64,000 bases of DNA from Cephalotus follicularis (lineage: Eukaryota > Streptophyta > Magnoliopsida > Oxalidales > Cephalotaceae): positions 62,001-126,000 of the forward strand of contig BDDD01000343.1 of the NCBI GenBank assembly GCA_001972305.1, given 5' to 3'. A program made the position numbers and the translations under genes. The notes beneath the pieces are model-generated. The model did no database searches. It was given only the letters and a program-made list of their open reading frames with translations, and was not told where the DNA came from. Shown piece after piece: positions 15,336 to 61,035 of the stretch. Position 1 is the stretch's first letter, and the number at the start of each line of letters is the position of its first letter.

Positions 15336-15575
15336 ACGTCGATCTAAAAGGCTAAAGGTTACAAAACTGTCTAAAGTGCTGACGGTTTTATTTAAAGCGT
15401 CGACGCTTTGGGCAACGGTCGATGTCCTAATTTTAGACGTCAACGCGTTGAAGTTAAATGTGTCAGTTGACTTAGACGAAGACTTAAAGCGTCAGCGCTT
15501 TAGTCGGGATAGAGGTAAAAAAACTCAGGAAAATGCCATAACCGCCGACGCTTATAAGGAAAACGTCGACGCTTT
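15336..15575. repeat. TCGA-dyad array in S1
   Basis: Sites resembling GCGTCGACGC have cores at about 15339, 15400, 15419, 15440 (TCAA variant), 15492 (TCAG) and 15545/15565. Neighbouring sites are 19-21 bp apart and the spacers are unrelated. Degenerate sites differ from the perfect palindrome mostly by C-to-T or G-to-A changes. Confidence 0.75.
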
Positions 15576-18500
15576 GAGCTACAGACAAAATTGCAAATCT
15601 GACTTCTTGGTATTTTGTGAGTAAAAATCTTTAATTTTGGACACGTGGCAGGCCAGGGAAGGATGCTATGAGGTGTTATCTAGTGATCTAACTGGTGTAA
15701 ACACATGGATTGGCTGAATCTTATCACATGGGCTGCCAAGAGAGAGAATTGAGTATGTGAGAGGGGAAAAGGCTTGCCTCACAAGCTATCCTTCTATTTA
15801 ATGGCTAAGAGTGTTGAAACTCAGTCATTTTGGCTGAGAAAGAAAGTGTTCCTGCTGATAGTGAAGCGAAGAATTCATGGAGAGCAAAAGAGAAAGGAAT
15901 TCTAAAGCAAAAGTAAGGAAATTCTATACCCGTTCTCTACAAAGCATCCCCTATTTTGCTTTCAATTATGCAGCAGATTGTTCATTTGATATCTTGTTCA
16001 ATTCTTGATAAAATTTTGAATGTTTGGATGTTATGGAAACTTTAGGATGTCCTCTTCAACTTTTATGCTTTGAATGTTTCAAGATTCTATCGTTTTCTTG
16101 ATGAAAATTTATGTTTTAAAACTGTCGTTTGGGTACTGTTTTATTCATGAATTATGCAGAAAATTCTTTAAATCACATCTTACTCGTTTGTTGATCAAAA
16201 ATTAAATGACTGGATGTTTTGAAAACCTTAAGATGTCCTCTTTAACTGTTATGTTTTATGTATCTCGAAATTATGTCAAATTCTTGACGAGAATCCATGA
16301 TTCATTTTACTGCTCATGCCTGTTTTCTCATGGAACCAGCCACTTTCAAAAATTCATAGAGGATTCAATTCCTAACCAATTGTTATGATCTTGAGCTTTC
16401 TGAAATCTTAAAGATGTCTACTTTAATGTTTATGTTTTGCGTTTTATCTGAAAATGCTTATTTCTATATGAATTATCAGTTTTCGTAAAGCTACGCAAAA
16501 CTGTTTTTATAAACTCATTTGAATCATTTATTCCAATGAAGAGAAAAGTTTATGAAATTTAAAGGAAATGTTATGAAATGATTTTTATGAATGCTTTGAG
16601 CTGATCACTCAAAGTATATGATGAATGAAATGCCCTTGGATTGCGATCCAAGGGGAATGGAGCGAAATGCTCAATGTTAATGGAGCGAAAGGCTCAATGT
16701 TAATGGAGCGTAAAGTGCTCGCGGACATGCATGTGATGTAAGGATAGTAATCGGGGAGTGCACAATGCCCCGGTGAAGCGGTGTAAAGGGTTCATTAAGG
16801 TTTTTATGAATTTAATGTTTAAGAAATGATCTAATTATGATATTAACTAGAAAAGTGATATGTTTTATGAAATGTTCTAGTTATATGTATTGACTAGAAA
16901 AATGTTATGATTAAATGTGTTTACTATAAAAACACCTTACTGAGCTATTTTGAGCTCATTCCTTTCAATGTCTTGTTTTCAAATAAAATGTTTTCAGGAA
17001 ATGAATGAATGGGGATTGCGAGCTTAGAGGAAGCTATTAAGAAGGAATTTTTGAGAAAGAAAGGCTATGCAATGATGTTTGCATTAATGTTTTGTTATGT
17101 AATAAGAATAAAGTTTTTTTCCGCTGTATTATATGTTTATGTAGAACAATGATCCTGTGTAATGTAGATCAGCGATATGATTATGACATCTTTATATAAG
17201 ATGATTATGTGTAAAGTTTGAATTTAATGTTATGTATGATGTTGCGAGATATGAGTTTATGAAGTATTTTACTTATAGAGAATAGTACCAAAGGATGTAA
17301 CGTTTCACACCCAACGTAACGCAACCGATCTTCGGAGTTTGCTTTGAGCTATTAGCGAGTTCGGGTCGGGGTCGTTACAACGGGGGACATTTGATACTTT
17401 TAGAAAAATGAGTTGGCATCCTTACTAAAATAAAATACTTTGGAAAAGTGAGTAAGAATCCTTATGTTACTTTTGCATAAAATAGCATTTTCCTTACACC
17501 CATAAAATACTCTGGAAAGGTGATTAGGATTCCTTACCTTGCTTTAATCTCCTTCTCTCCCATGATTCATCCTAGCCAAAACTTAGCAGAAACTAACGCC
17601 TTCTTAGCCGAGACTACACACATATGTATAGCATTTATCAAACACAATTTGTATGCTATATGGTCATAAACATATCATACACCTTACCTGTTAACACTAG
17701 CAACTGTACATTCGAGCTGCAGGTTCAACCGCCGAACATTTCCATGTTGCTGCCAACTATCGATTATCACTTCCCTTCACTGTCGAACCAAATTACCAAC
17801 TCACTCACTAAACATACAATACATTTCCATTACGATCAATGCACATAAACCAACATTGCCGTCACCGGAGCGTCGGCCAGATACCGGCCAACTCACCCAG
17901 CTTGTGAAACACCTATGAACAGGTTCCGCATTGAACGGTCTACTCAAAACCGCTCAAGACTCACCGTGAATTGGCGTCGAACGCCGTGTCACCGGCGGTA
18001 GCGAGTTGTGACTCACTGAGTCAACTCGTTCGACTTCCACCACTTCGGCCACCACCCAAAAATGCCACACAACCATCAGTTCTACCCACTACTGACCAAG
18101 ACTCGGCACCAAATGCACAGTCTCATGCGGTAGTGAGTCGACTCGTCGGGTCAAGTCAATCAACACATCCCGGCTGATTCTGACTGAGAAACACCTCAAC
18201 GGTGGTCGAAATGGATAGAGCGAGACTTCTAGACAAAAACCCACCCCATCCGGGATGTGAACGGCGTCAGAAAACGCATGGTCAACGGGCTCAGTGGCGG
18301 GTAAGAAAAGAGAAAAGAGAAGAAGGGGGGAAGAGTTGCCGGCGATAGGCGTGCCTGGGTTGCTCACCATCCTTTCCCAGTCACGTGGCTGGCTCCGGCG
18401 TCGTCTCCTGCGCCCTCTCTCCCTTTCTCTCCCGTTGTCTCTCCCTGTCTCTCTGTTGCGGGCGTTTAGAGCCCGCTTCCTTTTCTTTACAGGGGCGCGG

Positions 18501-18828
18501 GATGCGCCCGTGGTCTCTTGTTCACTGTAAACAGAATGTTTTAAAATTTATAGCCGCAAGTGCACGGATCATGCAGTAACGGGTCGAACGCAGGGAAACG
18601 TTAAACTAGTTATAATTTATTCAACCTAGACGAAGTATACCAAATTTGAAGTAAACTATTAAAAACTACTCCTAATTATGCAAAAAATAATAAAACAATT
18701 GAAAACAAGAAATAAATAAAATAAAATAACATACTAAAGTAATTCGAAATACCAAGAAATAAAGCATGCAATTTTAAGACGAATCAAAGCAATGAATAGA
18801 AGTGAAGAAAATATATAATTAAGAAGCG

Positions 18829-19384
18829 NNNNNNNNNNNNNNNNNNNNNNNNNNNNNNNNNNNNNNNNNNNNNNNNNNNNNNNNNNNNNNNNNNNNNNNN
18901 NNNNNNNNNNNNNNNNNNNNNNNNNNNNNNNNNNNNNNNNNNNNNNNNNNNNNNNNNNNNNNNNNNNNNNNNNNNNNNNNNNNNNNNNNNNNNNNNNNNN
19001 NNNNNNNNNNNNNNNNNNNNNNNNNNNNNNNNNNNNNNNNNNNNNNNNNNNNNNNNNNNNNNNNNNNNNNNNNNNNNNNNNNNNNNNNNNNNNNNNNNNN
19101 NNNNNNNNNNNNNNNNNNNNNNNNNNNNNNNNNNNNNNNNNNNNNNNNNNNNNNNNNNNNNNNNNNNNNNNNNNNNNNNNNNNNNNNNNNNNNNNNNNNN
19201 NNNNNNNNNNNNNNNNNNNNNNNNNNNNNNNNNNNNNNNNNNNNNNNNNNNNNNNNNNNNNNNNNNNNNNNNNNNNNNNNNNNNNNNNNNNNNNNNNNNN
19301 NNNNNNNNNNNNNNNNNNNNNNNNNNNNNNNNNNNNNNNNNNNNNNNNNNNNNNNNNNNNNNNNNNNNNNNNNNNNNNNNNNNN
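18829..19384. other. Assembly gap (556 N)
   Basis: The gap flanks match T2 on either side of its 54-bp tandem array (about 58734 and 59548). The missing sequence is therefore probably the same array. Any open frames drawn through it are artefacts. Confidence 0.95.
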
Positions 19385-19686
19385 AAGGCAGAAATATTGA
19401 AGAACAAATCAAATATTCAAGGATTTTTATTGATGGAATTGAAACAATAACAATCTAGGCTTTGTTCTTCCCCAAAACCTTGAGAAGTTTAGCTACTAAA
19501 CATTGTGAAATAAAACTAAAATTGATAAAGAAAAATAGGGTTTTCACCAGCCTCTACACACTCTCTTTTATTTTGGCCGGCATTGCATTGTTTTTATACT
19601 ACAAAACTGATCAAAAATGGAAATAAATCAATCCTAGTTACAAAATCTGGCAAAAAATCTAACTTTCTATTTCTGCTGCAGAAGAA

Positions 19687-19990
19687 GACGTCGACGCCTT
19701 TGGTTGGACATCGACGCGTTTTGTAAAGAATCGCGTTTTGCTGAGATGCGCGTAACGGACGTCGATCCTTTTGATGAGAGACGTCGATGCAGTTTGATCC
19801 AAGAGTTACAGATCGAAGTTGCACAACGACGTCGATCTGTTTGATGAAAGACGTCGATGCCTTTTTCATAGCTCTTGAAGATAAGTTGCAATTTCCAGAA
19901 AGAACATCGATACCTAACAAAAGACATCGATACGTTTAATGCAAACCCAGAAAAGACGTCGATCCCTATGAAAGACATCGATGCGTTTTG
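19687..19990. repeat. TCGA-dyad array in T1, five spaced pairs
   Basis: Cores are at 19691/19711, 19762/19784, 19832/19854, 19907/19927 and 19959/19978, with an extra TCGA at 19813. Within-pair spacing is 20, 22, 22, 20 and 19 bp. Successive pairs start 71, 70, 75 and 52 bp apart. The word is GACGTCGATGC or GACATCGATRC. The array is bracketed by CTGCAG-containing direct repeats and is absent from T2. Confidence 0.9.
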
Positions 19991-20549
19991 CTCTGTTTCT
20001 GCAGAATTTGTCAATTCTTCAATCTTTACACTTTCAAGCTCTAATTTGCACAACTTTGGGTAGTATTCTTGCACTTTGGTCCTTTTGCACTTGTACCTGA
20101 AAATCAATATAACACAACCAAAGTAGTCTATTCCAAGCATAAAAATATTACAAATAGATCATTCAAAACAACACATTTTTATGCTAAACATATCTCTCCC
20201 CTTCCCTTTATTTCTTTGCTTCCTCTTTAGTATTTACCAACAAAATACTAACGTCTGGGTCCCGATTAATCCGCGAATTGCGACAGAAATTATCCAAACG
20301 AAAACCAAAATAATCGTAAAAATAATGCGAACACTGGGCCTTACAAGCGCGCATTAAAAATAGACTTTATTAGCCGTTTTGAGCATCATAATTGCTGCCT
20401 CAAATGCGCAATGCCTTAGAACATTTCCTTATCATTCCTCTTTCAAAACTCAACGTTATAAAAGGGAAAACATCATCAAATTCGAGAATTTCACTATTCT
20501 CATTAATTCCGTAATAAGATTTCATTTTAGGAAAAACTCGGGTGTTACA

Positions 20550-20884: not shown

Positions 20885-22038
20885 ACAACTCCGTCGCATG
20901 GCCGACGCAGTATCAATCCACTCACAAACCATCAATCAATCCAAGTCAATCCATTTTCCAAGTAGTTTATAAGTTATAAATTACTTGAAACGATATATTT
21001 TCACAATATATATATCAATCCTTAAAATAGTTTACAATTATTTGGAAACTATTTTTCAATCCTTCGAAAAATGTACATTTTGTGTAAAATAACGATTTTC
21101 TTATAAATCATTAATGCACTTCCAAAATGGTAAAACATTTTAGAAACCATATACAATTCAATCCATAATCCAATCCATAGCAATATGAAATGCAAACATA
21201 TGCTCAAATGCATCTAGACTCATTTCCAGGTCAACGTGCACTATCTAAGCGAAATCGCTCAAAACAGTAGCTTAAGCGTTGACCTTTAACTTTTGTCATC
21301 GATGCTTATGTCCTTTAAGGGTCGACGCTTTCATCCTTAGCGCCAGTGCTTAGTTCAGAAGCCTTGTGCATCAGTACTTGTCTTTGGCATCGACGCTTTG
21401 AGGTAGGAACCTCCATATCAAGGTGTCCAATCATTCATCTTCTTCGTCTAACAGTCCAAAGTGTCGACGCTTATTCTTTAAGCGTCGACACTTAAAGAAG
21501 ACCATATCGTCTTCTTCAACGCGTCACAGAAATAGGGGAAACCAAATCAATCCAAGCATTCAATCCAATCCAATATCATACCAAAACATGACATGCATGG
21601 CAGGTTAACATATCACACTAACCACAACACCAATCATGCTATTAACAGTCGATAATAACCATGCAATCATCAATGAATATTCACCATTTTTGAACTCAAA
21701 ATTGCATGTATAAATCCCTTAACAGTTAAAGCAATAGCAACAATACAATCGAGCTGCAGGTTTATATGCCGAACATTTCCAAATTGCTGCCAACTGTCTA
21801 TTATCACCTCTCTTCACTGCCGAACCAAATTACCAGCTCGCTCACTGCACATACAATACATTTCCATTACGCTCAACACAAAGAAAAAAACAGTGTCGTC
21901 ACCGGAGCGCTGGCCAGATTCTGACCGACTCACCTAGCTTGTGCAACACCCATAAACTGGTTCCACATTGAACGATATACTCAAAATCGCTCGAGACTCG
22001 CTGTGACTCGGCGCCGAACACCGTGTCACAGGAGGCAG
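20885..22038 (-). repeat. R3 3' LTR, first visible segment
   Basis: It matches the R3 5' LTR from about 52366 to 53500, including the TAAGTTATAAATTACTTGAA phrase and the TCGA array. S2 interrupts it at 22039 after GGCAG. Confidence 0.85.
21275..21500. repeat. TCGA-dyad array in R3 3' LTR
   Basis: Cores at 21279/21299, 21322/21343, 21371/21390 and 21464/21485 form pairs 20, 21, 19 and 21 bp apart. The word is GCGTCGACGC with common TTGA, CCAG and TCAG variants. Confidence 0.85.
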
Positions 22039-22510
22039 TGTCGTACCCCATTTTCAGTAAACAGGAGATATGGTAAAGGCAATTAACATTTAAGATTCAG
22101 CTTATGCAAATACCATCAAATTTATACTTTTCAAACATGATATCAATTGCCGAAGCATTAAAATTCATAAGCTGAAAACCACGTAACGTGCATCCCATAC
22201 TACACGTTACCAAATACATGCATGTCATAGTTAAAAGCCCACAAAACGGAGCGTGATCCAAAATACATTATCCAGCAACATCATAAAACATAACCAGCTT
22301 AACAAAACCCAAAATGACATAACCCCAAGTAAAACTTTACTAAAACTTGTACTTCATCCATTCTTGTACCCCAATGTCGGTCCACAACATCAATCTGCAA
22401 ATAGAGGGTTAGCCTTTGTCCTCATTCGACTAAGTCATAAGAGTAAGTCGTGATTAACATTACATGCATGTCATGAGATGTATGCGTAGTGATGCGGTAC
22501 AGTAAAAATA

Positions 22511-22516
<6 letters not shown>

Positions 22517-22544
<28 letters not shown>
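22517..22544. repeat. (TA)n microsatellite
   Basis: About 13 TA units lie within S2. Confidence 0.95.
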
Positions 22545-22547
<3 letters not shown>

Positions 22548-23399
22548 AAATATATAAATTAGCAGTACAGTGAAATAACAGTGGAGATATATATATGAAA
22601 ATATATATGCATCATCAGTACAGTAGTAACCCGGCCAGGACTACATGAAACAGGCACAGTAGCGTCCGCATAGGACCAGTAAACAGTAAACAGTATGTCC
22701 ACAAAGGGACTAACAGGCAGTCAGTCAGTACGAACAACGTCGCCAACTCCTGACCCCACGTCGTACTCCTAACTTATGCCCCGCCTCCGGACGGCACGCA
22801 GTAGGCCACAGTATAGTACAGTGAGTCACCCAGCCAACTACTGGCTTCTAGGTCAACCCTGCCACTAGTCATCACTGGCAATCTCCGCCACGCAACTAGT
22901 GCGGCGCAAACACAAACACAGCCCAAACACAGCATAGTCACAGTGCAAACACGAAAATAGTCACAGTGCAAACACGAAAATAGTCACAGTAACAGTACAG
23001 TTCAAGAAATTTTATAAAATAATTACTTGATCAAAAATATATCAGTTTACTTCAAGTCATTTAAAATTACTTGAAATTATGCATTTCCATCTCATAGAAA
23101 ATTCTTTAAACAGTTACAGTAATGGGATTCATTCCCCAATTTGTTCAAAAATATGTATTTGTCCAATATATATTTTCGTACTTAAAACATTTATTTCCAA
23201 ACTCATATATGCATTTCTAAATTAATATAACAATTTAGAAATCATAAACAGTTCATAAATAGTTGATAAACAGACAGTAAGCAGTACACATGCAATGCAT
23301 ACAAATGCTCTACTGCATCTTAACTGGAATCGAGATCGTTTCATGTCATTTAAGTAAGAAAACTTCCAAACAGTACAAGAAGGAGTCGATGCCTATTAT

Positions 23400-23655
23400 T
23401 AGGAGTCAATGTTATTGTCCCGTAAGCGTCGACGCTCAACTCCTTAACATCAGCGCTTTCCACTGTTCTAAAGACGTCGATGTCCAACTTATACGCGTCG
23501 ACGCTCAAGTTATGGAGCCTTAAATGCCAACGTATTGCTTAAGGCGTTGACGCGTTAAGGTAGGAACCTTAGGCGTCGACGTATAATACATCAGTATCCA
23601 TGTAGACAACCCAAAGACGTCGATGTTTCCCAAAGGCGTCGAAGTTTTTCGAGCA
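23400..23655. repeat. TCGA-dyad array in S2, distal cluster
   Basis: Cores lie at 23406 (TCAA), 23429, 23450 (TCAG), 23477/23498, 23527/23547 (variants), 23576/23591 and 23620/23639. Most neighbours are 19-23 bp apart. The word is GCGTCGACGC. A second dyad, AAGGTAGGAACCTT, lies between two sites at about 23557. Confidence 0.85.
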
Positions 23656-24173
23656 TCAGTCATCTTCTTCCTCACAACATGACAAACAGTAACCTCTCCA
23701 ACTCAACAACATATAAACCAACATGCATTAAGCCCAGAAAACCGACATGCAACATCATATTACGCATCCAGTACAACATGGCATAAATCCAGTGACAAAA
23801 AACAATTCAATTAACCCTGAAAACTATGCAGAAAAATCACTGTCCAGGCATGAATATTAAGCTCAAAATTACAATTATGGCTTCCCCTACATCTGGCCTC
23901 AAGTTAGAAGCCGAAAGTCCACCTCTTTTAGTATTCAACACTCCCTTTTGAGTTCCCAGGTACGACTTGAACGCTCCCTGGATCGTTCCAACAGTTGCGG
24001 TTCAAGCTCCAAGCTCTCCCTTGCTCAACAATGGAGGTTTAACTTTCTCTCCCTATCCTTCTACTCTCTTTCACCCTCTGTCTTTCTATTTCAGTAACAG
24101 ACTAGAGGAAGGTGAGAGAATCGACACTTATGTAATTCCCATTTTTGTTTCATCTGCATGCATCCACGAGATC

Positions 24174-24174
<1 letters not shown>

Positions 24175-24207
<33 letters not shown>
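24175..24207. repeat. (CT)n microsatellite
   Basis: About 16 CT units lie within S2. On the element's own (minus) strand this is a GA tract. Confidence 0.95.
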
Positions 24208-24209
<2 letters not shown>

Positions 24210-24424
24210 CAAACCTGATGTAACAGGTGTTGCATTCTTCCTCCTCACAGTTCATGCACTCAGAGATTCTTTCTCTCTTCAGTGTCTTTTTATTATTTGT
24301 CAGCCAGGCATTACAGGCATGCACACCACATCACAAAAGGGTCTGCCAAGATGCCAGATGAGTGGCATAAAAAACCCTCCATGCAACACGTCCATCTGCT
24401 GTTAGTGCGCATCAGGAATATGAC

Positions 24425-24580
24425 ACAAGGCGTCGACGTCTTTTTCTTCACGTCGATGTCTTTACACATTTACGCGAAAGGCATCAACACGTATACTGTG
24501 CGTCATCATTTTGACGAGTTTGAAATACGCACGCATTAGTTGGAAAGGCATCGACGCTATAGGTTTAAGGCGTCGACACT
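24425..24580. repeat. TCGA-dyad array in S2, proximal cluster
   Basis: Pairs lie at 24433/24453 (20 bp) and 24551/24573 (22 bp), with degenerate sites between them. The word is GGCGTCGACGTC or a close variant, as in the distal cluster of the same LTR. Confidence 0.8.
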
Positions 24581-24774
24581 TTTTCCCTTTTCTTCAATTT
24601 TTAAAGCTAGGCAAACGCTTAACATTTCTTGGTATTTCTTATCACAAAATCAACATTTTTCAAAATAGAAAACGTCATCAAAGTCGGGAAATCCATCATT
24701 TTATTCATTCCACAATAAAAGTACATTTACATCGTGAATCTACAACATATGAAAATCCTGGGCGTTACAGGCAG

Positions 24775-46833: not shown

Positions 46834-46851
46834 TGGCGCCGTTGCCGGGGA
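46834..46851 (+). other. R6 primer-binding site, copy 1
   Basis: TGGCGCCGTTGCCGGGGA lies 6 bp after the LTR end. It is the primer sequence usual for Athila/Tat-lineage elements. I do not assign the tRNA with certainty. Confidence 0.88.
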
Positions 46852-46875
46852 GCGTTTTGAGTGTCATCAAAATTT

Positions 46876-46893
46876 TGGCGCCGTTGCCGGGGA
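46876..46893 (+). other. R6 primer-binding site, copy 2 (duplicated)
   Basis: A second exact copy of the 18-bp primer site lies 42 bp downstream of the first, within a repeated segment that also duplicates GTGTCAT and AAAATTT. Only copy 1 sits at the normal distance from the LTR. Confidence 0.88.
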
Positions 46894-47000
46894 CCGAAGT
46901 GAGTGTCATAAAAATAACTTAGGAAGTTTGGTAAGTCAAAAAAAAACAAAAAAAAAACAAAACCTTAGGAAAATTTCTTCTTTTTAGTTTAGTTAGATGC

Positions 47001-47228
47001 ATGATAGGTCGCCGATCGTTGGATTATGAAATACTTACTCGAGACCTAGAAGTTGAAAGAACCCTTGCTGGAATTAGAGCGAATAACATAATGGGTGAAA
47101 ATCATAACGTGCCCCAAAGACGACCCTTAAGTGAACATTTTACCCCACGTGCATATACCACTGCTTCATGTATTAGGGTGCCTGCTGTCCAAGCTGCTCA
47201 ATATGAGATTAAGTCCAGTATTATTTAG
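47001..47228 (+). pseudogene. R6 gag N-terminus, closed by a single in-frame TAG
   Basis: The 75-codon frame starts MIGRRSLDYEILTRDLEVE and ends QYEIKSSII. It is in the same frame as the 1015-codon gag-protease frame that begins at 47229, right after the TAG at 47226-47228. Related Athila-type Gag proteins run through this junction without a stop, so the TAG is probably a C-to-T change from CAG. Either Gag now starts at the downstream ATG or the copy is disabled; readthrough cannot be excluded. Confidence 0.72.
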
Positions 47229-50200
47229 ATGTTACCATCCTTTTATGGACTTGCCAATGAGGAACCGTACAAGCATTTAGATGAATTCATTGAGATTTGC
47301 TCCACGTTTAAAATTCAGAATTTGTCGGAGGATGCCCTTAAGCTTATCTTATTTCCATTCTCATTGAAAGATAGAGCTAAACAATGGTTACATTCCTTAT
47401 ACTCCGTAATCATCACAACGTGGGCACAATTTCAACACGAATTCCTCAAGAAATATTTTCCCATAGGTCGAACCAACCAAATAAGACGAGCTCTGACTAG
47501 CTTTTCGCAAAAAGATGGTGAGCAGTTCCATGAGTCATGGGAAAGATTAAAGGAACTCATTCGAAAATGTCCCCATCATGCCTTTCCTAAATGGCAGTTT
47601 GTCCAATGCTTCTCTGATGGACTGACCGCACAAAATAAACAGATGGTGGATGCTTCTTGTGGAGGTACATTCATCCATAAAAATGAGGACGAGGCTTGGC
47701 AATTATTTGAGTCCCTCGGCGAGAACTCTTTGCACCATTTATCATCTAGAATCGAGTCCTCTACGATGGGTACTCAAAAGAAAGGAGGCATATACGAGGT
47801 TAGCCAAATTGAGACTATCAATGCCAAGGTGGACATCATATCTCAGAAATTAGATAAAGTGCTTACTATAGGGTCGCTTCCTACGCAATCTACTAAGACT
47901 TCTACTGCACTCGAGGCTTGCGCCTTATGTGCTAATCCAACACATTACATGAGTGATTGCCCGCTTGCTGTGCAATATCCAGAATTTATTCAAGAACAAG
48001 CGCAAGCATTGCAAGGATTCCCTAAACCGGTGAATAATTCATATTCCAACACGTATAACCCAGGATGGAGGAATCACCCCAATTTTTCATGGAAGCAGCC
48101 CAATACTAGCCAAAATCCCCCGTATAGGCAAGATAATTCCTTTCCTTATCAGAATTCCTATAGGGATGTGCAACAATCGAATTTTTCACCTCAAGTGCCC
48201 TTAACAAATGAAGATAAATTGGATAAGGTACTATTTGCGTTAGATGGGATCAACAAGAATAGCCAGAAATATGATCAGATCATTCACTCCCATACCCAAT
48301 CCATCTCCAAATTGGAAACGCAAATAGGACAGCTAGCTGATATGATGAGAAAGAGAGAAGAAAGCCACATACCCAGTCAAGTGGTATGCAATCCGAGAAA
48401 TCAGACTGGACAGTGTTCCTACGTAGAACAAGCCCAAGCAATTACTACTTTGAGAATCGAAGGAACGCAAGAAACTATCTCAAATCCTGATCTGATTCAT
48501 GAAAAGAATCCTGAAGAGAGTGTGTCCTCCGAGAGTGGTGAGAAAGAGACCATTGGCCAATCTGAAACGGAAGTCACTAAAGCATCCACGTCTAAAGAAA
48601 GTGAACAAAAGGGGAAGGAAAAAGACATTACCTTTGCCAAACCTAAAGCACCTTTCCCCGATTGTTTACGATCTCCGTCTTTAGTTCCTCCGTTTGGTAA
48701 AAACTTAGCAAGAATGGACGAGATGATGGAACTGTTCAAACAAGTCCAAATCAACATTCCTCTCTTAGATGCAATACGACAAGTGCCAGCTTATGCCAAA
48801 TTATTAAAAGACTTATGCACCACGAAGCATAAGCTGAAAACGTACATTCCAAAAATGGTCCATCTCACAGAGCAGGTGAGCGCAGTGCTTTCTAACAAGT
48901 TGCCACCTAAAGTAAAAGATCCTGGAGCTCCTCTGATATCGTGTAAGATTGGAAATTTACTCATAGATAGAGCACTTTTGGATTTAGGGGCTAGCGTTAA
49001 CATCCTCCCTAGCTCAGTTTATGACAGTTTCGAATTTGGAGAATTGAAACCCGCTCTTCAACTTGCTGATAGATCTTTGAAAATTCTGAAGGGATTCATT
49101 GAGGACGTTTTGGTGAAAGTAGATGAGCTTTATTTTCCAGTGGATTTCCTTGTGCTTGATATGGAAACACCTGCGATTGGGAAACCACATTCGATTATCT
49201 TAGGTCGTCCTTTCTTAGCAACAGCAAATGCATGCATAAATTGTCGATCTGGAGCTATGGACATATCCTTTGGTAATAAGAAATTGAGAATAAACATCTT
49301 CAATGCACCCCTAGGACCTCAAGGTGAGGAGGCTTGTTTTTTCATAGATAGGATAGATAGGACATATCCTTGGAGTTTCATTGACGATGATTGTGAGGCA
49401 GATTCAGACACTGTTGAGATTAATGCCCTGTTGGATTCTCCTTTGATATACTCGACTCCTGATAGGATTGACACACAGTGGTTGGAAAATGAAGCTGAGT
49501 TAGCATGGCTAGAAAGTAAGCTTGATGAGCCAACATCAGATAGTGAATGGGATCATCTATCCCATTACACTCACAAAATTGCCACGCCTGACCAAACGTC
49601 CTTTGACATAGAGTTTGATAGCAACTTCATTGAATGCTTGAAGGAAATAGAGGATGAGGAAGCAATTCAACAGGAATTTTTGAAGTGGTTGGATAATGGG
49701 GTTATGGAATCAATCTCATATAGGGAACGCGAATTTGATGAAATCATCAGTGAGTGTATGAGGGAATTTGAGGAGATTGAAAAAGGAGATTTCTTTGAGG
49801 TGTTAGGTCCACAACCATTAGAATTAGAGGGTCCATTGCCCACATCTTGGCATAAACCATTCATAGAAAAGTCTTTGAAATTTCAATTAAAAGAATTTCC
49901 TTGTAATTCATTCATGGGTCATTACTCCACCTCATTTGAAATTGTGAATGTTCTTTGGGATTGGGAGACTAGTAATTTGGTAGATTGCATTCTTGACAGT
50001 TTTTACTGGTGGAATTCTTGTTGGGATGGTTCTTATATTGTAAAAATTGTTTTCTCCCATTTTGTTGATGCACTTAAATGTTATGGTTCTCTTCATGGTT
50101 TTTATTGGTGGATGTCTCATTGGGATAGCGCTTATATTTTTAAAATTATGCTTTCACCTGGTATTTTTGAATTTGTTGAGACAGATATTGGAGACAAACC

Positions 50201-50276
50201 TTACGTGGACGGAGTTACTGATGGACAAATGATTAAGTCTGTTGACTTGATTGATCCTGTCTACACTCGTTTGTGA
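47229..50276 (+). CDS. R6 Gag-protease polyprotein, Athila/Tat type, no RT
   Basis: A 1015-residue open frame, the longest in the window. Residues 1-150 are the gag core (FYGLANEEPYKHLDEFIEIC, DRAKQWLHSL, QFQHEFLKKYFP, FHESWERLKELIRKCPHHAF). A CX2CX4HX4C zinc knuckle spans 231-244. The acidic, Ser/Glu/Lys-rich linker covers about 400-480. The aspartic protease carries DLGASVNILP (catalytic Asp about 585) and ILGRPFL near 657; the DLG variant is usual in Athila-type proteases. The last 250 residues are acidic, then aromatic, with a repeated YWW...YIxKI unit near 926 and 959. RT, RNase H and integrase are missing, so this copy would depend on others. The start lies after an in-frame TAG, so the native N-terminus is uncertain. 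Confidence 0.88.
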   Translation: MLPSFYGLANEEPYKHLDEFIEICSTFKIQNLSEDALKLILFPFSLKDRAKQWLHSLYSVIITTWAQFQHEFLKKYFPIGRTNQIRRALTSFSQKDGEQFHESWERLKELIRKCPHHAFPKWQFVQCFSDGLTAQNKQMVDASCGGTFIHKNEDEAWQLFESLGENSLHHLSSRIESSTMGTQKKGGIYEVSQIETINAKVDIISQKLDKVLTIGSLPTQSTKTSTALEACALCANPTHYMSDCPLAVQYPEFIQEQAQALQGFPKPVNNSYSNTYNPGWRNHPNFSWKQPNTSQNPPYRQDNSFPYQNSYRDVQQSNFSPQVPLTNEDKLDKVLFALDGINKNSQKYDQIIHSHTQSISKLETQIGQLADMMRKREESHIPSQVVCNPRNQTGQCSYVEQAQAITTLRIEGTQETISNPDLIHEKNPEESVSSESGEKETIGQSETEVTKASTSKESEQKGKEKDITFAKPKAPFPDCLRSPSLVPPFGKNLARMDEMMELFKQVQINIPLLDAIRQVPAYAKLLKDLCTTKHKLKTYIPKMVHLTEQVSAVLSNKLPPKVKDPGAPLISCKIGNLLIDRALLDLGASVNILPSSVYDSFEFGELKPALQLADRSLKILKGFIEDVLVKVDELYFPVDFLVLDMETPAIGKPHSIILGRPFLATANACINCRSGAMDISFGNKKLRINIFNAPLGPQGEEACFFIDRIDRTYPWSFIDDDCEADSDTVEINALLDSPLIYSTPDRIDTQWLENEAELAWLESKLDEPTSDSEWDHLSHYTHKIATPDQTSFDIEFDSNFIECLKEIEDEEAIQQEFLKWLDNGVMESISYREREFDEIISECMREFEEIEKGDFFEVLGPQPLELEGPLPTSWHKPFIEKSLKFQLKEFPCNSFMGHYSTSFEIVNVLWDWETSNLVDCILDSFYWWNSCWDGSYIVKIVFSHFVDALKCYGSLHGFYWWMSHWDSAYIFKIMLSPGIFEFVETDIGDKPYVDGVTDGQMIKSVDLIDPVYTRL

Positions 50277-50307
50277 CGTCCACATTTGTTGCGTCTAGCC
50301 AAAGACG

Positions 50308-51607: not shown

Positions 51608-52739
51608 CTGTTGTCACACCCCGTTTCCATAAATAACCTTTAGGCCGTGGCAATCAACATATATATATTCAGCTTATGCAATTTACGGCCAATTTGAAAC
51701 TTTTCAACACATAATATCATTGCGGGAGCATTTAACCATAAGCTAAAACCAATAAGTAACATGTATCATATACTACATGTTACAACAATATAATATTATT
51801 GTTAATCGCCCTCAAATGGAGCATGAACTGATTTGATCAACGCATAAATTTATTTATTAGAATAATCCATGTTAACATTTCTTACAAGAAATACAACTTA
51901 ATTCCTCTTCATTTTCCCCAAGCTCCAGCGATGTCAGTCCGCTGAATCAAGCTAAAATTGATAGGGTTAGCCGATTCAACTGGCTAAGTAGAGAAAATAT
52001 AAATACACTTTGGGGTCAATAATAACGAATGTCATGTAATGAATGCATCGTGACGCGATTCAGTATATATACAATACATAATATGTATATGTATATCAAT
52101 AGGTAGCAACCATACAATCCATCAACCATGTCCCAAGGACCAATCCAAAACAATCCGATCAATCCACTGTTACTTGCTCGTAGGCTAAGTAACCAATGGG
52201 TGTGGGTGTCCTTAGCCAACTCCTGGCCCCTAGGTGCACAATCCTGCTCCTAGCCCTCAATGACAGCTCCGTCACGTGGCTAGCGCAGCATCAATCCAAT
52301 CATTGTGGGAGTCCCTAGACATCTCCTGGCTCCTAGGCACACCATCCTGCCCTTGCCCCTCAATGACAACTCTGTCACGTGGCCGACGAAGATCAATCCA
52401 ATCACAAACCATCAGTCAATCCAAGTCAATCCATTTTCCAAGTAGTTTATAAGTTATAAATTGCTTGAAACAATATATTTTCAATATATATATCAATCCT
52501 TAAAACAGTTTGCAATTATTTGGAAACTATTTTTCAATCCTTCAAAATATCTACATTTCATGTAAAATAATGATTTTCTTATAAATCATGAATGCACTTC
52601 CAAAATGGTAAAACATTTTACAAATCATATACAATCCAATCCATAGTAATATGCAATGCAAACATATGCTCAAATGCATCTAGACTCATTTCGATGTCAA
52701 CGTACACTATCTAAGAGAAATCGTTCAAAACAGTAGCTT

Positions 52740-52960
52740 GAGCATCGACGTTTAACTTTTGGCGTCGACGCTTATTTCCTTTAAGCGTCGACGCTTTCAT
52801 CCTTAGTGTCAGCGTTTACTTTAGAAGCCTTGCGCACCAGCACTTATCTTTGGCGTAGACACATTGAGGTAGGAACCTCACGCATCAACATGTGTAATCA
52901 TTCATCTTCTTTGTCTAACAGTCCAAATCGTCGACGCTAATTCTTTAAGCATCAACTGTT
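52740..52960. repeat. TCGA-dyad array in R3 5' LTR
   Basis: Cores at 52745/52765 (20 bp) and 52788/52809 (21 bp), with degenerate sites near 52837/52856 and 52930-52955. It is the counterpart of 21275-21500 in the other LTR of the same element. Confidence 0.85.
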
Positions 52961-54119
52961 AAAGAAGACCAGATCGTCTTCTTCAACGCGTCACAGAAAT
53001 AGGGGAAGCCAAAGCAGTCCAAGCATGCAATCCAATCCAATATCATACCAAAACATGACATGCATGGCAGGTTAACATATCACAGTAACCACAACACCAA
53101 TCATGCTATTAATAGTCCATAATAACCATGAAATCATCAATGAACATTCAACATTTTTAAACTCAAAATTGCATGTATAAATCCCCTACCAATTAAAGCA
53201 GTAGCAATAGTACAATCGAGCTGCAGGTTCAATTGCCGAACATTTAAATTGCTGCCAATTATCGATTATCACTTCCCTTCACTGCCAACGAAATTACCAG
53301 CTCTCTCACTGCACATACAACACATTTCCATTACGCTCAATACACAGAAACCACCACTGCCGTCACTGGAGCGCCAGCCAGTTCTAGTTGACTCACCCAG
53401 CTTGTGCAACACCCATAAACAGGTTTCACATTGAACGATCCACTCAAAACCGCTCAAGACTCACTATGACTCAACGCCGAACACCGTGTCACAGGCGACA
53501 GTGAGTTCAACTCACTGAGTTGACTTGCCAGACTTTAACAGCTCCAGTCACCACCCAAAAATGCCAGACAACCATCAGTTCTACACACCACTATCCAAGA
53601 CTCACCGAGACTTAGCACAAATCACACGGTCAAAGGTAGCAGCGAGTTAGAACTACTGAGTTGACTCAGTCAACCGATTCTGCCTATTCTGGCCAAGAAA
53701 CGCCTCAACCACTATCAAAATGGGTAGAGCTGGCCTTCTAGATGAAGACCCACTCCATCCGTGATGTTAACGGCCCTGGAAACGCATGGACAACACACAG
53801 CATTGGGGAAGAGAAGAGAAGAAAAGAGATAAAAGAGATGGAGAAGGAAGAAGTTACTGTCGAGTTGAGAGCTTTGGTTGCTCGCCATCCTTTTCTGGTC
53901 CAGTGGCTTGCCCCGGCTTCTTCTCCGGCGCTCTCTCTCTCTCTCCCCCTCTGTCCCGTACTCTCTCCCGCTCTCTCGCTGTAACGCCCAGGATTTTCAT
54001 TTATGTGTAATATTGCTTTTCTAATGTAATTTTACACCTTGTGTTAATGAGAATCATGTTTTCCCTATTCCCCGCGTTGAAATGTTGCAAGAAAGTGTGT
54101 TGTGGTGTGTTTTTGTGCA

Positions 54120-54256
54120 AGGGCAGTCGACTGCCACAGGGAGACAGCCGACTGGACCCTTGCTGAGGCGCGACAGCCAGCTGCCAAGAGGAGGCAGCCG
54201 GCTGGTAGGAGTGTCGGCAGAAACAGCCGATTGCCAAGCAAGGCAGTCGACTGCCA
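54120..54256. repeat. TCGA-dyad array in S4, proximal cluster, three pairs
   Basis: Cores at 54127/54148, 54177/54198 and 54227/54247: within-pair spacing 21, 21 and 20 bp, pair period exactly 50 bp. The word is CAGTCGACTGCC with CCGA, CCAG and CCGG variants. Spacers differ. Confidence 0.92.
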
Positions 54257-54769
54257 TGTGCCAGACAGCCCACGTGCTGTCTGCCTTAAGTGGGAAAAGG
54301 GGGAAGTGTTTTGGATTTATTGCATTTTGCAGAGGAGGGGCCGGGGGTTTTCTCCATAAAACACAACATTTCTCTCCTATTCCTCCATCTTTCTTTGTGA
54401 TTCAAGAGAGTTTGAGAGTGAAAGTGTGTGTGTGTTGAAGCTACGGAGCTTGTGCGTTGAAACCGTGAAGATTGGAGGCTTGACAGTGGGCGTGCGGGCT
54501 TGTTGAAGGCGGCTGAACGTGTTGGGGTTGCAAGAGCTTCGGATTTAAGCTTAAAGAGGTGGATTGCAAGTCCTAACTTGGAGTTCTAAGGTAGGGGGAA
54601 GTCGTTTTGCAACATAATTTCAATTGTAAATGTTTTTGATGAAATAAAATGCATGTTTATGTTGTATTGTGAGCTGGGAACGTGTATGTGCATAAATATG
54701 TCATTTTGGGTTGTGTTTGGTGTGTGATTGTGGCTGTTTTAGCAGTTGGTTTTTACACCTGCTGCAGAA

Positions 54770-55080
54770 TTCAGTTGACTGCCCACCTCGGACAGTCGAC
54801 TGCCAACGGGTCCAGCCGACTGCCTAGGGAGGCCAGTCGACTGCCCACGTTCGTTTCCCAAAAATGTTTGCAGAGGTAGTGTAGTCGATTGTCGTAGGTC
54901 GACACCCGACTGTGGGGTGTGGACAGCCGACTGTCAGGGATGACAGCCGACTGTCGAGTGTGGGCAGCCGACTGTCTTGGTAGACAGCCGACTGCCTGGT
55001 CATGTAGCCGACTGCCTGGGGTTGGCAGCCGACTACTTTGAGGGGGACAGCCGACTGCCAGTGGTGTGCAGCCGACTGTT
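54770..55080. repeat. TCGA-dyad array in S4, distal cluster, phased at two DNA turns
   Basis: Cores at 54775, 54796, 54816 and 54837 (21, 20, 21 bp), then 54884, then nine consecutive at 54906, 54927, 54947, 54968, 54988, 55008, 55029, 55051 and 55072 (steps 21, 20, 21, 20, 20, 21, 22, 21). The site is CAGYCGACTGYC. The roughly 10-bp spacers have no common sequence. Confidence 0.94.
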
Positions 55081-56664
55081 GGGGGCCTGTTTCGCCCGTG
55101 AACATATGTATGCATCGTGTATTGTGATGTTTTGCTTCGTGAAGCCTTATGAACTGTTTGGAGCATTGTGATTATTGAGTTTAAACTGTTATAACATATT
55201 GCTGGAAGTGCATTGTAGTTAATGAAAAATCATTACTTTACACGAAATTATATGTTTTGAAAAATATATACTTTCGAACCGTGAAAATGACTTCCAAAAA
55301 CACCGTGAACTGAGTTTTGTGATATTGAGAACCGTGAACCGTGACATCGAGAAAATGAGTTTGTTTTCAGGTATTTTGTTTTATAAACTACTTGGAAACT
55401 GTTTTCAGCATCGAGATGATTGTGATTATGATTGAGCTTGACTGTGGTTGCTGTTTGTGATTTTGATTGTGGCCGTACTGGTTGCATGGCGGAGATGCCA
55501 GCGATGACTAGTGGTCTGGTTGACTCAGGGGCCAGGAGTTGGCTGGGTGACTTACTGTATTGTGACCTGCTTCGTGCCGCCCGGAGTTGGGGCCGATGTC
55601 GGGATGTACGACGTCGGGGCCAGGAGTTGGCGACGCTCTTCGTACCTACCGTGAACCGTGAACCGTGAACCGTGTATTGTGTAGTCCTTTGGACTTGTTT
55701 GAGACCGTGCATTGTGATATTGTGACATTGTGACACCGTGGTTTCGGTGATATCGTGACATCGTGTTTTGGCATATGCATATCTATATTTATATATATGT
55801 ATCGAGATATAGTATGTACTGCATCATGCTGCTTTCATACTTTGGTTTTATTGATAATGTGTTCTTTTTATGACTTTGGCCGAGTGAGGACAAAGGCTAA
55901 CCCCCTACTGCTGCAGATTGATGCTGCGTTGGACTTTGCCGAGCATGGCTGTTTGGGCTATGATGTGACGGAGTTTTATGCTTTGTTAAGCAGTGTAGCG
56001 AACATGTTGTACTTTGGTTTATGTACTAATGTTTTGCTATTGTTGTTGTATCAACTTTGGATCATGCTCCGCTTGTGGGCTTTTTAACATGTTGTTATGA
56101 GCATGTTGTGGGAATCATGCGGTATGGGACGCATGGTTTCGCTTGTTTTCAGCTTATATATATATGCTTCCGCAATATTTGATGTCTGTTTAAAAGTTTT
56201 AAATTTTTATCGTTCTCTGTATAAGCTGGATATCTGTTAAATTGCCATGTTGTATGTTGTTAATTCAAGCGGGGTGTGACACTCGCGCCCTCTCTCCCTC
56301 TATCTCATTCTTTCTTTTGCACGGGCGCATTATACGCCCGTGTCTCCTTCTTTCTTCTTTCATTATTTGGTTCTCCCCCTTTCGTTATTGGTATTTAGCA
56401 ACAAAACATTAATGCCTAAGTCCCGTTTATTCCACGCATTGCGATATAAATTAATCCAGCCGCCACTCAAATAATTGTAATAATAATGTGAACATTGGGC
56501 CTTACTGTCGCACATTAAAAATAGGCTTTATTAGCTGTTTGGGCTTACAATTTCAGGCTTCAATGCATAGTGTCTTTTACTGCTCCGGGCCTATATCAAC
56601 TTTATCATGGCCATACACTGTACTAATATCACGATAATTATTTATGAAATTCTGGGGCATTACA

Positions 56665-56879: not shown

Positions 56880-57575
56880 CCGAGGTCAGGCTTCAAGCTT
56901 TGAAGTCTGCCTTCTAGTACGAGGTCTTGCCTTCTAGCATGAGGTCTGCCTTCAGTATGAGGTCTTGCCTTTAGTACTAAGGTCTGCCTTTAGTGCGAGG
57001 TTTTCCTTCTAGTACAATGTCTGCCTTCAGTGTGAGGTCTTGCCTTCAGTACTGAGGCTTGCCTTCAGTATGAGGTCTGCTCTAGTATGACATCCGCCTT
57101 CAGTACGAGGTCTGCCTCTAGTACGAGGTCCACCTTCAGTACGAGGTCCGCCTTCGAGTACGAGGTCTTCTTCTAGGACAAGGTCCGCCTTCAGTACGAG
57201 GTCTGCCTCTAGTACGAGGTCCTCCTTCAGTACGAGGTTTGCTTTCTAGTACGAGGTCTGCCTCTAGCATGAGGTCCACCTTCAGTACGAGGTCGGCCTT
57301 CTAGTATGAAGTATGCCTTCATTACGAGTTCTTGCCTTCATTACTGTGGTCTGCCTTCAGGATGAGGTCCACCTTCTAGTTTGAGGTCAGCCTTCAGTAC
57401 GAGATCTACTTTCAGTATGAGGTCTGCCTTCAGTACGACGTCTTGCCTTCAGTACTGAGGTTTGCCTTTAGTACGAGGTCTTGCCTTTAGTTCTGAGGTC
57501 TGCCTTCTAGTACGCGGTCTGCCTTCAGTACAAGGTCCGCATTCAATACGAGGTCTGCCTCTAGTACGAGGTCCC
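56880..57575. repeat. Minisatellite, about 18-bp unit
   Basis: Roughly 35-40 degenerate tandem copies of a unit like GAGGTCTGCCTTCAGTAC, with variants (GCCTCTAGTAC, GTCCACCTTC). It is not inside any element I can delimit. Confidence 0.92.
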
Positions 57576-57766
57576 TAATGATACGATTATTAGTCCCAGG
57601 AGGTTCTAGCCGATAATGATATGATTACTAGTCCCTGAAGGTTCTAGCCGATAATGGTACGATTACTAGTCCCTGAAGGTTATAGCCGATAATGATACGA
57701 TTACTAGTCCCTGAAGGTTCTAGCCGATAACGATACGATTACTAGTCCCATGATGGTTGTAATCGA
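57576..57766. repeat. Minisatellite, 38-bp unit, five copies
   Basis: Units start TAATGATACGATTACTAGTC and end GGTTCTAGCCGA. The starts are 38 bp apart (57576 to 57728), and the fifth copy is one base longer and diverged. It directly abuts the 18-bp array. Confidence 0.93.
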
Positions 57767-58253
57767 TAACGATTCCTAATTGAGGGTAGGAAAAGCTAGG
57801 GTTGAAAACTTGGTATTTTGCAGAGAACGGGGCTCTAACGCCAAGGTCTACCTTAGCTTCCTCGAGCTCTGCCTTAGCTTCTTTGCTCCAAGTCTGACCT
57901 CTACTTCTAAGGTCTGTAATTGACAATTGCTCTAGGCGTCGACTGTTATCTCTTAAGCATAGCGCCAACATTGTGGCCTTTGCAAAGCATCGAAGACGAT
58001 TGATAACGATTTGCAGTTTCAACCCAAAACCCTTTGAATTCCATTCTAGAGGAAGCAGTAAGTTCCAATGGTCGATTATCAGTTGAAAACCACTTTAAAG
58101 CATCAAATCCATTCCCATAAACCACAGATCGGGAGAGAGAAGAATTTGGGCAAAATGTCCCAACTCTCTAATATCTCAGATCTCCATCTAAAAGCCGTAA
58201 CATACCACAACAATCAATCTAACCCATCCATAACAATATAATTTACAGATTCA

Positions 58254-59822
58254 TGTTTAGCATAAAAATGTGTTGTTTTTAATGTGTTATTTATGATATT
58301 TTTATGCTTGGAATAGATTACTTTGGGTGTGTTATATTGATTTTCAGGTACAAGTTCTAAATGACCAAAGTGCAAAAATACTACCCAAAAGTGTGCAAAT
58401 TGGAGATTAAAAGAGTAAAGATTGAAGAAATGCCAAATTCAGCAGAAATAGAAAGTTTAGATTTTTGCCATATTTTGTAAACTAGGATTACTTTTATTCC
58501 GTTTTTGATCAACTTAGTAGTAAATAAACAATGTTAGCCGGCCAAAAACAGTAGATTAGATCAGAGAGAGGGTGGTGACAACCCTAATCCTTCTTTTCTC
58601 CTTAGTTTAGTTTTCATTATGCTTAGTAGCTAGTTTTTTAAGGTTTTGGGGAAGAACAAAGCCTAGATTGTTATTGTTTCAATTCCATCAATAAAAATCC
58701 TTGAATATTTTATTTGTTCTTCAATATTTTTGCCTTCGCACACACTTTGTTTGTCTGATTAAAATCCACACTCATCTTATCGGTGAAGCTGAAAGTTGGT
58801 GAATAAATGGAGCTTAATTCAACGGGTCTACTCATACGATTTGTCGCAACGAACACACTTCGTATAGACCTAGCATGACTACTCATACGTCTTGTCTGAT
58901 TAAAATCCACACTTCGTATAGACCTAGCATGACTACTCATACGTCTTGTCTGATTAAAATCCACACTTCGTATAGACCTAGCATGACTACTCATACGTCT
59001 TGTCTGATTAAAATCCACACTTCGTATAGACCTAGCATGACTACTCATACGTCTTGTCTGATTAAAATCCACACTTCGTATAGACCTAGCATGACTACTC
59101 ATACGTCTTGTCTGATTAAAATCCACACTTCGTATAGACCTAGCATGACTACTCATACGTCTTGTCTGATTAAAATCCACACTTCGTATAGACCTAGCAT
59201 GACTACTCATACGTCTTGTCTGATTAAAATCCACACTTCGTATAGACCTAGCATGACTACTCATACGTCTTGTCTGATTAAAATCCACACTTCGTATAGA
59301 CCTAGCATGACTACTCATACGTCTTGTCTGATTAAAATCCACACTTCGTATAGACCTAGCATGACTACTCATACGTCTTGTCTGATTAAAATCCACACTT
59401 CGTATAGACCTAGCATGACTACTCATACGTCTTGTCATCACCGCCACACTCCGTATCGACCTAGCTGCCGTTGTTTATCAAGGTATGATCGGTCAACTAC
59501 ATGGAATTGTTCAATACAATCTACGGTGAGTTTCTATACCCTAAACCGCTTTTTAATTATATTTTCTCTTAGTTTTTATTCATTGCTTTAATTAGTTTTA
59601 ATTTGCACGTGTTATTTTATTTTATTTTATTTCTCGTTTTCAATTGTTTTATTTTATTTTGCATAATTAGGAGTAGTTTTCGATAGTTTATCTCATAAAT
59701 TGTTATACTTTGCCTAGGTTGGATAAATTACAACTAGTTTACGTTTCCCTGCGTTCGACCCGTTACTGCATGATCCGTGCACTTGCGGCTATAAATATTA
59801 AAACATTCTAAATAAGTGAACA
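58254..59822 (+). mobile_element. T2: Athila-like solo LTR (1569 bp) with perfect TSD
   Basis: TGTTTAGCAT...AGTGAACA, with ATTCA at 58249-58253 and 59823-59827. It is the same family as T1 in the opposite orientation. It has the GCATAAAAAT / ATTTTTATGC inverted repeat at its start. It lacks the TCGA array present in T1. It has no primer site or coding region. Confidence 0.92.
58855..59445. repeat. 54-bp tandem array in T2, about 10-11 copies
   Basis: The unit runs from CTTCGTATAGACCTAGCATG through ACTCATACGTCTTGTC to AAAATCCACA and is almost identical between copies, so it was recently homogenised. Because 54 is divisible by 3, both strands stay open across it, giving false repetitive proteins. 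Confidence 0.95.
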
Positions 59823-60538
59823 ATTCACTCAATATGTAAGTTCATAGCATATCTACAGAACATACCTCAATAACTGTTAAATCATTGATCTGATCCTTCC
59901 TTCAGGTTCTATGCTCTACCATGAGTCCAACGACTCATTCCTTTCTCCAATCTGAGCTTTCTCTCTCAAATTCCCTCTCTCATTGTCTCTCTAAAACCAG
60001 AGGCAATAAAATGAGAGTATGAGAATGAACGGGAGATGAGAGTAGAAGCGTATATGAGAAGCTGAATTGTCTATATATTTAGAGACTTATTTTGGGCCGA
60101 AAAATCCACAACCTGCCCTTGACCTCACAATGTATAAGCCCTATAATTTTATGTAAATGTTTGAAATAAATAATATTGTGAAATGGAGTCTTGGAAATGT
60201 TATTTTATTGATGGATTGTAATTGTGATATGTAATATATTTCCCTTCATGAATTATGTGGTTGAGTAGCATTTAATCAAAGTGGAGGAATAAAGGTAGAT
60301 TAATATAGGACCCAATTCTTAATAATTCTCCAGAATAGAAAAAGGCGGCATCCCTGTCTTCTTTCCTGGAGAATTAGTCACTCTCCTTATTAAATATCAC
60401 GCCTGGACTCGTCAAAAACAGAAGAGAAAGAGAGACAGTGGGGAAAAGAGAAGAGAAAGAAGAGAAAGGGAAAACAAAAGAGACAGCGGGGAAGAGGAAG
60501 AAAAACGGTAGACAAAGGGAGAAAGAGAGAGCGTTGAG

Positions 60539-60560
60539 CAGAGAGAGAGAGAGAGAGAGA
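60539..60560. repeat. (GA)n microsatellite
   Basis: About 11 GA units inside the GA-rich block of the R7 LTR. Confidence 0.95.
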
Positions 60561-60864
60561 AAAGCTCAGGATTGACACAGGTGAAGCTTGAGGTACTGGA
60601 AGTTCGTCAGTTTTGCAGCAGAATCCTCCATTGTTAGGAGCTCATCAGTTACTATTGAGGTAGGTTATACTATTTGCTGCATTTATCTATTTCAATGAAT
60701 TGCATGAATTGTTACTATTACTGAGTGTTGATTTCATGTTAGGGGGCTGGATTGGGAACTGAATATGGTTTATAAACTGATTTTACTGGTTTTGAAATGG
60801 ATTGTAGTGGATTTTGACATGGTTTTGACTGATTCTTGAACTGTTCCAGGTTGCCACTTCTGTT

Positions 60865-61035
60865 AAAACCGTCAAAGCTTCATGCCTTTAATACTAAACA
60901 CGTCAACACTTTGTATGTTAAGCGTCGATGCCTAGCACAATGCTTTATGACTTTAATACTAAACATGTCAATGCTTTGTGTATTAAGTGTTGACGCCTAG
61001 CGCAGACAGTCGGCGCTTAGGTGCGTCGACGTCTA
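60865..61035. repeat. TCGA-dyad array in R7 LTR
   Basis: Cores at 60903/60925 (22 bp), 60968/60990/61010 (22 and 20 bp) and 61026. The word is GCGTCGACGC with TCAA and TTGA variants. Confidence 0.8.

Follow-up and report, generated by a model that had tools for sequence, protein, structure and literature searches.

The window analysed here comprises 64,000 nucleotides of the Cephalotus follicularis genome (contig BDDD01000343.1, positions 62,001 to 126,000) and is a nest of long terminal repeat (LTR) retrotransposons, in which short palindromes centred on TCGA recur in clusters. This raises the question of what such clusters are and why they are kept. An earlier note on this DNA held that the palindromes are phased on one face of the double helix and that their spacers are unrelated, and it suggested that a dimeric or multimeric protein binds them. 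The explanation favoured here, which we consider reasonably probable, is that the arrays would act as cis-regulatory promoter platforms of LTR retrotransposons, on which protein dimers would assemble cooperatively along a single face of the DNA.

The abundance of the sites is apparent in the genome as a whole. AAGRCRTCGAYGYCTT occurs 114,924 times as opposed to 521 times for the reversed control, while versions with the central C altered number 9,311 (4,600 + 4,711; controls 8 and 1). In the window interval 15336-61035, compared with 100 dinucleotide shuffles made in 300-bp blocks, 31 of the 172 TCGA tetramers lie in a dyad of at least 8 bp (shuffles 8.7 +/- 2.9, maximum 16), and 23 TCGA pairs stand 19-23 bp apart (shuffles 1.9 +/- 1.2, maximum 6). 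Twenty arbitrary 10-kb stretches, picked by contig number before viewing and with no random generator, contain 152 TCGA dyads vs 32.9 +/- 5.7 in shuffles and 97 pairs at 19-23 bp vs 7.8 +/- 2.8. Among the 16 palindromic tetramers in these stretches, TCGA has the highest share of 8-bp dyads (0.234), followed by TATA (0.117), GCGC (0.105), and ATAT (0.103). TCGA (0.152) ranks below TATA (0.194) and ATAT (0.182) in the window, an effect attributed to TA repeats.

The spacing of the cores follows the DNA helix. The best period of core distances is 10.24 bp (75 clusters, 675 distances; bootstrap over clusters 10.15-10.30), estimated from the 20 stretches, the window, and six of nine further blocks (C1) that had been selected for presence of the motif, with three near copies of the same family omitted and LTR pairs within stretches all kept. 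The period persists when only distances of at least 26 bp are considered (R 0.386 vs at most 0.127 in 300 random-placement controls). In the 20 stretches, TCGA-TCGA distances peak at 20-21, 41-42, 49-52, 62-63, 70-72, 81, 91-92, 101-103, and 112-113 bp and rise weakly at 31-34 bp; the phase vector reaches 0.301 (shuffles 0.07 +/- 0.034, maximum 0.18). AGCT, GATC, GTAC, ACGT, and TGCA give no comparable distance series in these stretches, and a microsatellite artefact was set aside on that ground; in the window, the GTAC and ACGT distances are the periods of two tandem repeats located there. The in-phase fraction in the window interval is 0.481 vs 0.305 +/- 0.064 (shuffle maximum 0.442). Genome-wide, a distance of 21 bp separates 25,896 pairs of CAGTCGACTG (control 89) and one of 25 bp just 47, a difference of about 550-fold; for ACRTCGAYGT the corresponding pairs number 2,762 (control 28) and 74, about 37-fold. 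The phasing and the excess of 19-23 bp pairs over shuffled controls thus bear out the earlier note, the former being much clearer genome-wide than in the window.

The sites fall into two classes, RCR-TCGA-YGY (class I) and CAG-TCGA-CTG (class II, CAGTCGACTG). Alignment of 83 class I sites, chosen by similarity to the pattern (at most two mismatches), gives an extent of 18 bp, AAAGRCRTCGAYGYCTTT, in which transitions at flanking CpG are common and those at the central CpG rare. The TCGA core is nearly, though not fully, invariant, as CAGCCGACTG and CAGTCGGCTG variants retain the central CG and stay in register. A class II array at 6376-6561 of stretch L043 has gaps of 21, 21, 21, 29, 21, 29, and 43 bp. 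In the DNA fetched, half-sites A (ACR) and C (GCR) combine within sites in 63 hybrids, compared with 6 hybrids involving half-site B (CAG); A and C were treated as one class, and the genome-wide counts exclude AARGCGTCGACGCYTT. A class I site adjoins a class II site at 21 bp, the single spacing counted, nowhere in the genome, and the C1_6050 array has one class I site amid class II sites at distances other than 21 bp. As part of the favoured explanation, and with similar confidence, the two classes would correspond to two recognition specificities, each used in both Sirevirus-type and Ty3/gypsy-type LTRs.

What lies between the sites shows little relationship. Among 131 pairs of neighbours at 20-22 bp, identity of the 6-bp spacers is 36%, compared with 32% for random spacers, and that of the sites is 77% over 14 bp, the core being shared by selection of the pairs. 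Because the spacers are unrelated, the arrays are not a duplicated 21-bp unit, in agreement with the earlier note, and plain tandem repeats were set aside. Constraint was assessed on four LTR copies in six comparisons in all. TCGA is better kept than spacers in all five comparisons between diverged LTR families, with changes of 0/52 vs 36/172, 1/52 vs 39/172, 0/48 vs 43/169, 9/60 vs 89/244, and 10/60 vs 89/246. For a pair of copies 92% alike, TCGA and spacers differ little (1/64 vs 11/251), which would follow from selection on replicating elements and not on dead copies.

The arrays are carried by diverse elements. At least one cluster is present in 14 of the 20 stretches, and 43 clusters of at least four RTCGAY, compared by their site-masked flanks, make up 16 sequence groups; 10 groups have a single member, and the largest (13 clusters) includes both class I and class II arrays. 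Sirevirus-type carriers were recognised by the junction of AGGGGGAGAT with TGTTG, and the Sirevirus polypurine tract AGGGGGAG lies 10 bp upstream of their 3' LTR. The junction of AGGGGGAGAT with TGTTGA is intact in C1_101788, C1_199755, and C1_205532 and departs from this form by one base in L034 and L043; L045 combines an intact polypurine tract with an altered LTR start. The exact polypurine octamer occurs twice in the linker of C1_205532 and of L045 (in L045 with further copies as GGGGAGA only) and once, with a variant, in L034 and L043. Positions 4295-4846 of L034 resemble the end of a copia RNase H by eye, with no Pfam match, and are followed by a PF20167 frame; matches of P0192 to RNase H regions were disregarded. 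A Ty3/gypsy carrier is seen in L046, where RVT_1, integrase, and SH3_Tf2-1 domains precede a polypurine tract, and the LTR that follows holds a class II array. A solo LTR of the same family, 2793 bp long and with target duplication GGTGA, is present in L047; the lineage is probably Tekay. L040 has class I arrays in both LTRs of a pair, in a stretch that lacks any frame of 150 amino acids. Another stretch, L044, has at 1-2920 an array of a unit of about 163 bp, the copies mostly about 80% alike, directly before the LTR-like start TGTAAGGCCCC.

In Sirevirus-type elements, the sites also stand before a gene. In L034, two array-bearing LTRs that are 98% alike enclose a frame of PF20167 ('putative plant transposon protein'), and such frames occur near arrays in L042, L043, L045, and C1_6050. 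Sites 20-22 bp apart are found less than 300 bp upstream of the PF20167 frame in 4 of these 5 loci: class II in L034, L045, and C1_6050 and a class I-like pair in L043, with no in-register sites within 300 bp before the frame of L042. Beside its class I LTR, C1_205532 has a distant PF20167 relative, a fragment with an identity of 25-30%; this frame is cut by the block end and was omitted here. From its position, PF20167 is probably the published Sirevirus envelope-like gene. A first look at the genome gave 13,073 PF20167 candidates, and all 150 of those scored were over the cut-off. A 19-residue hydropathy of 1.6 is reached by 39 of 240 PF20167 proteins (201 are below), and 21 of 27 proteins of at least 370 amino acids have a basic cluster in residues 1-40. 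These features fit a nuclear protein better than a membrane protein and prove neither. In L043 (4447-8404), PF20167 stretches at 4447-5042 and 7607-8404, on the minus strand, flank an LTR-like stretch with a class II array and are either one broken gene or two copies.

The arrays of the window and the LTRs that hold them are as follows, with the strand given where one is assigned.

15394-15428: class I site pair, cores 15400 and 15419, the first a 16-bp palindrome.
19685-19987: array of 10 class I sites, gaps 20, 51, 22, 48, 22, 53, 20, 32, and 19 bp.
21293-21494: class I sites, cores 21299, 21322, 21390, 21464, and 21485, in repeat copy 20885-22040.
22039-24769, minus strand: solo LTR, ends TGTAACGCCC...GTACGACA, target duplication GGCAG, with two class I arrays.
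23380-23658: class I array inside that solo LTR.
24427-24582: second class I array inside the same solo LTR, gaps 20, 98, and 22 bp.
30446-30779: class I array, close pairs alternating at 22, 19, 22, 19, and 22 bp.
34670-34994: class I sites, cores 34676, 34916, and 34985, with no 19-23 bp pair.
51612-56664, minus strand: LTR, start TGTAATGCCCC, end GTGTGACA adjoining an initiator-Met-type primer binding site, with nested solo LTR 53980-56281.
52739-52940: class I sites, cores 52745, 52765, 52788, and 52931, in LTR 51612-56664.
53980-56281, plus strand: solo LTR with class II sites, target duplication CTCGC.
54124-55078: class II array of 12 sites (CAGTCGACTG, CAGCCGACTG, or CAGTCGGCTG), 20-21 bp apart within groups.

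The earlier note had counted at least eight LTR units with arrays, a tally that can be followed only in part because its labels bear no coordinates and some arrays have no LTR ends found. Arrays or sites do stand in the solo LTRs 22039-24769 and 53980-56281, in repeat copy 20885-22040 and its homologue 52366-53503, and at or beyond the edge (near 34676) of repeat 33181-34739/27595-29166. The array 19685-19987, however, sits in a 1.67-kb insert (about 18518-20193) in which no LTR ends were found, and the far end of the repeat containing 30446-30779, which has a homologous array at C1:221380-221667, was not found. As the earlier note had said, some LTRs lack the sites: the LTR-like pair 7353-8824/13623-15094 has no TCGA pair at 19-23 bp. 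A whole array can also be absent as a unit, since the same-family copy 58253-59823 (minus strand) is without the array of 19685-19987, and the junction at TTTCTGC repeats suggests deletion. Judged by its ends, solo LTR 22039-24769, which has no attached pol, is probably of Ty3/gypsy type; the superfamily of 53980-56281 was likewise assigned from its ends, and the first 14 bases of the two are identical, yet one has class I and the other class II sites. None of the window's TGTAAyrCCC LTRs showed the Sirevirus polypurine tract.

Several further observations were made in the window. The close pairs of arrays 30446-30779 and 19685-19987 switch back and forth between a spacing of about 22 bp and one of 19-20 bp, and most pairs stand 29-53 bp from the next, so that two dimer-dimer geometries may be represented. 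The array-less copy contains a 54-bp tandem repeat at 58854-59436 (10.8 copies, 100% matches), and an 18-bp unit with a 55-bp higher order is repeated 36 times at 56905-57573 (74% matches). At 46834-50276, two primer binding sites 42 bp apart, presumably Athila-type, precede a 1015-amino-acid frame with a gag domain (PF03732). A match to protein P0210 at 31566-31709 was dropped, as it aligns to the protein tail only.

Under the proposed mechanism, each 10-18 bp palindrome would bind one protein dimer, and an integral number of helical turns, most often two but also about three, four, or five, would separate neighbouring dimers on the same face. They would bind cooperatively or as an oligomer and thereby control the LTR promoter and, in Sirevirus-type elements, also the internal promoter before the PF20167 gene. 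The symmetry and phasing of the sites are consistent with the dimeric or multimeric binding suggested earlier. Two retrotransposon superfamilies have the same sites, which suggests that they share trans-acting factors, and the strict spacing opens up another option than the unproven 'envelope' role for the very abundant PF20167 family. A number of points weigh against this interpretation. Protein binding, cooperativity, and promoter function are deduced from sequence patterns, and the arrays could instead be kept for silencing or nucleosome rotation; a period of 10.24 bp is closer to the nucleosomal than to the free-DNA helical repeat. The genome-wide out-of-phase reference is one spacing (25 bp), the phase vector of the window interval alone (0.285) is below that of the best shuffle (0.348), and certain clusters show weak phasing or sit in inserts that lack LTR ends. 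Two of the six comparisons give change rates of 0.15-0.17 for the core and 0.17-0.18 for the half-sites, so that the core is better kept than the spacers but not than the half-sites. Lastly, the separation of the classes, counted at one spacing, could also result from a founder effect and local duplication.

If dimers do occupy the arrays, the binder might be encoded by the elements themselves. It is possible, if doubtful, that the PF20167 protein binds the arrays and counters silencing as VANC does for VANDAL, the gene-less LTRs being parasitic. The protein has a conserved core, an acidic stretch, a heptad-like C-terminus, and often the basic N-terminus described above, and all four stretches with PF20167 bear arrays, although 14 of the 20 stretches do so anyway. 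VANC arrays, too, are described as forming by local repeats and changing with the protein in the available text of PMC5735166. A profile search against solved structures, however, points to no DNA-binding fold, with five matches (best E 0.2) that lie mostly in the coiled-coil-like tail, and the basic cluster is absent from P0067, the sole long protein of clade 1. Nor do protein clades and site classes clearly correspond: clade 1 (L034, L045, C1_6050) accompanies class II, while clade 2 has the class I-like pair of L043 and, in L042, class II sites 1.9 kb downstream that perhaps belong to another element. The two clades are 21-23% identical, and the relative beside a class I LTR is just the C1_205532 fragment. 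A fuller version seems rather unlikely: the retrotransposons of the plant would use two orthogonal protein-DNA codes, the PF20167 proteins of Sireviruses would be nuclear, oligomeric DNA-binding anti-silencers lined up on one face of the phased palindromes, and gypsy and non-coding elements would have independently evolved the same arrays to exploit them.

Explanations without a dedicated binder fare less well. The palindromes may instead serve silencing, with array transcripts folding into hairpins that give rise to small RNAs; the same has been suggested for maize Sirevirus LTRs, whose palindrome-rich regions are small-RNA hotspots according to the part of PMC5311732 consulted; the C1A array is CpG-rich (observed/expected 1.52), though those of L034 (0.57) and L047 (0.66) are not. 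Hairpins would presumably need neither 10.24-bp phasing nor a kept central CG, and selection on an element to retain a trigger of its own silencing is hard to envisage, which makes this account quite improbable. That the arrays are a neutral by-product of slippage or local duplication of a 21-bp unit is very unlikely. Multi-site stretches of about 110-130 bp are indeed duplicated at 74-76% identity in some LTRs, but the spacers are unrelated, the sites outlast them across diverged families, and the phase holds as well at distances that 21 does not divide, about 51 and 71 bp among them. RNA dimerisation or packaging, the alternative named in the earlier note, would suit self-complementary sites and is scarcely credible otherwise, as it predicts neither a phasing that matches the DNA helix nor boxes before an internal gene, and two Sirevirus-type LTR arrays begin 165-213 bp in, probably before the transcription start. 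Integration-target palindromes were set aside, being described in the text seen of PMC6911290 as a slight preference over 5-6 nt.

Cooperatively bound promoter platforms thus remain the favoured account, and they have known relatives. Contrary to the earlier note, which knew of no named feature of this kind, Ty1/copia Sireviruses have palindromic RM boxes in their LTRs and extra copies before the envelope-like gene, and 2 of the 13 published motifs (Vitis CGGTCGACCG and Tnd-1 ACAATCGATTGT) are centred on TCGA, according to the portions of Bousios et al. (2010, PMC2829016) consulted. The Cephalotus arrays resemble them in being palindromic, numerous per LTR, divergent in their flanks, clustered in the upper LTR part, and present both in the LTR and, in the loci described above, before the PF20167/envelope-like gene; maize Sireviruses likewise have palindromes in the regulatory part of their LTRs. 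RM boxes carry a CGG-CCG core, to which Tnd-1 is an exception, and neither RCRTCGAYGY nor CAGTCGACTG does. The boxes are also called Sirevirus-specific in the same source, whereas the Cephalotus arrays occur in Ty3/gypsy-pol LTRs as well (L046, L047), are helically phased, and form two classes in one genome. With VANC motifs of VANDAL transposons, as the accessible parts of PMC5735166 and PMC10398659 present them, the arrays share dense short motifs in non-coding transposon DNA that are family-specific and gained or lost; VANC motifs, however, lie in one orientation as tandem repeats in DNA transposons and have a known binder, while the Cephalotus arrays are known from sequence alone. A word search of the available text of PMC2829016 found no spacing analysis of RM boxes, and, subscription papers aside, the titles and abstract openings among the matches listed describe neither phased arrays nor RM arrays in gypsy LTRs. 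As far as these searches reach, what is new is the helical phasing of the palindromes, the arrays in Ty3/gypsy-pol LTRs and, judged by LTR ends, in LTRs of the window, and two site classes never adjacent at 21 bp. Ultimately, with so strict a preference for 21 over 25 bp, what began as a description of palindromes in Sireviruses becomes a model of cooperative binding that can be tested.

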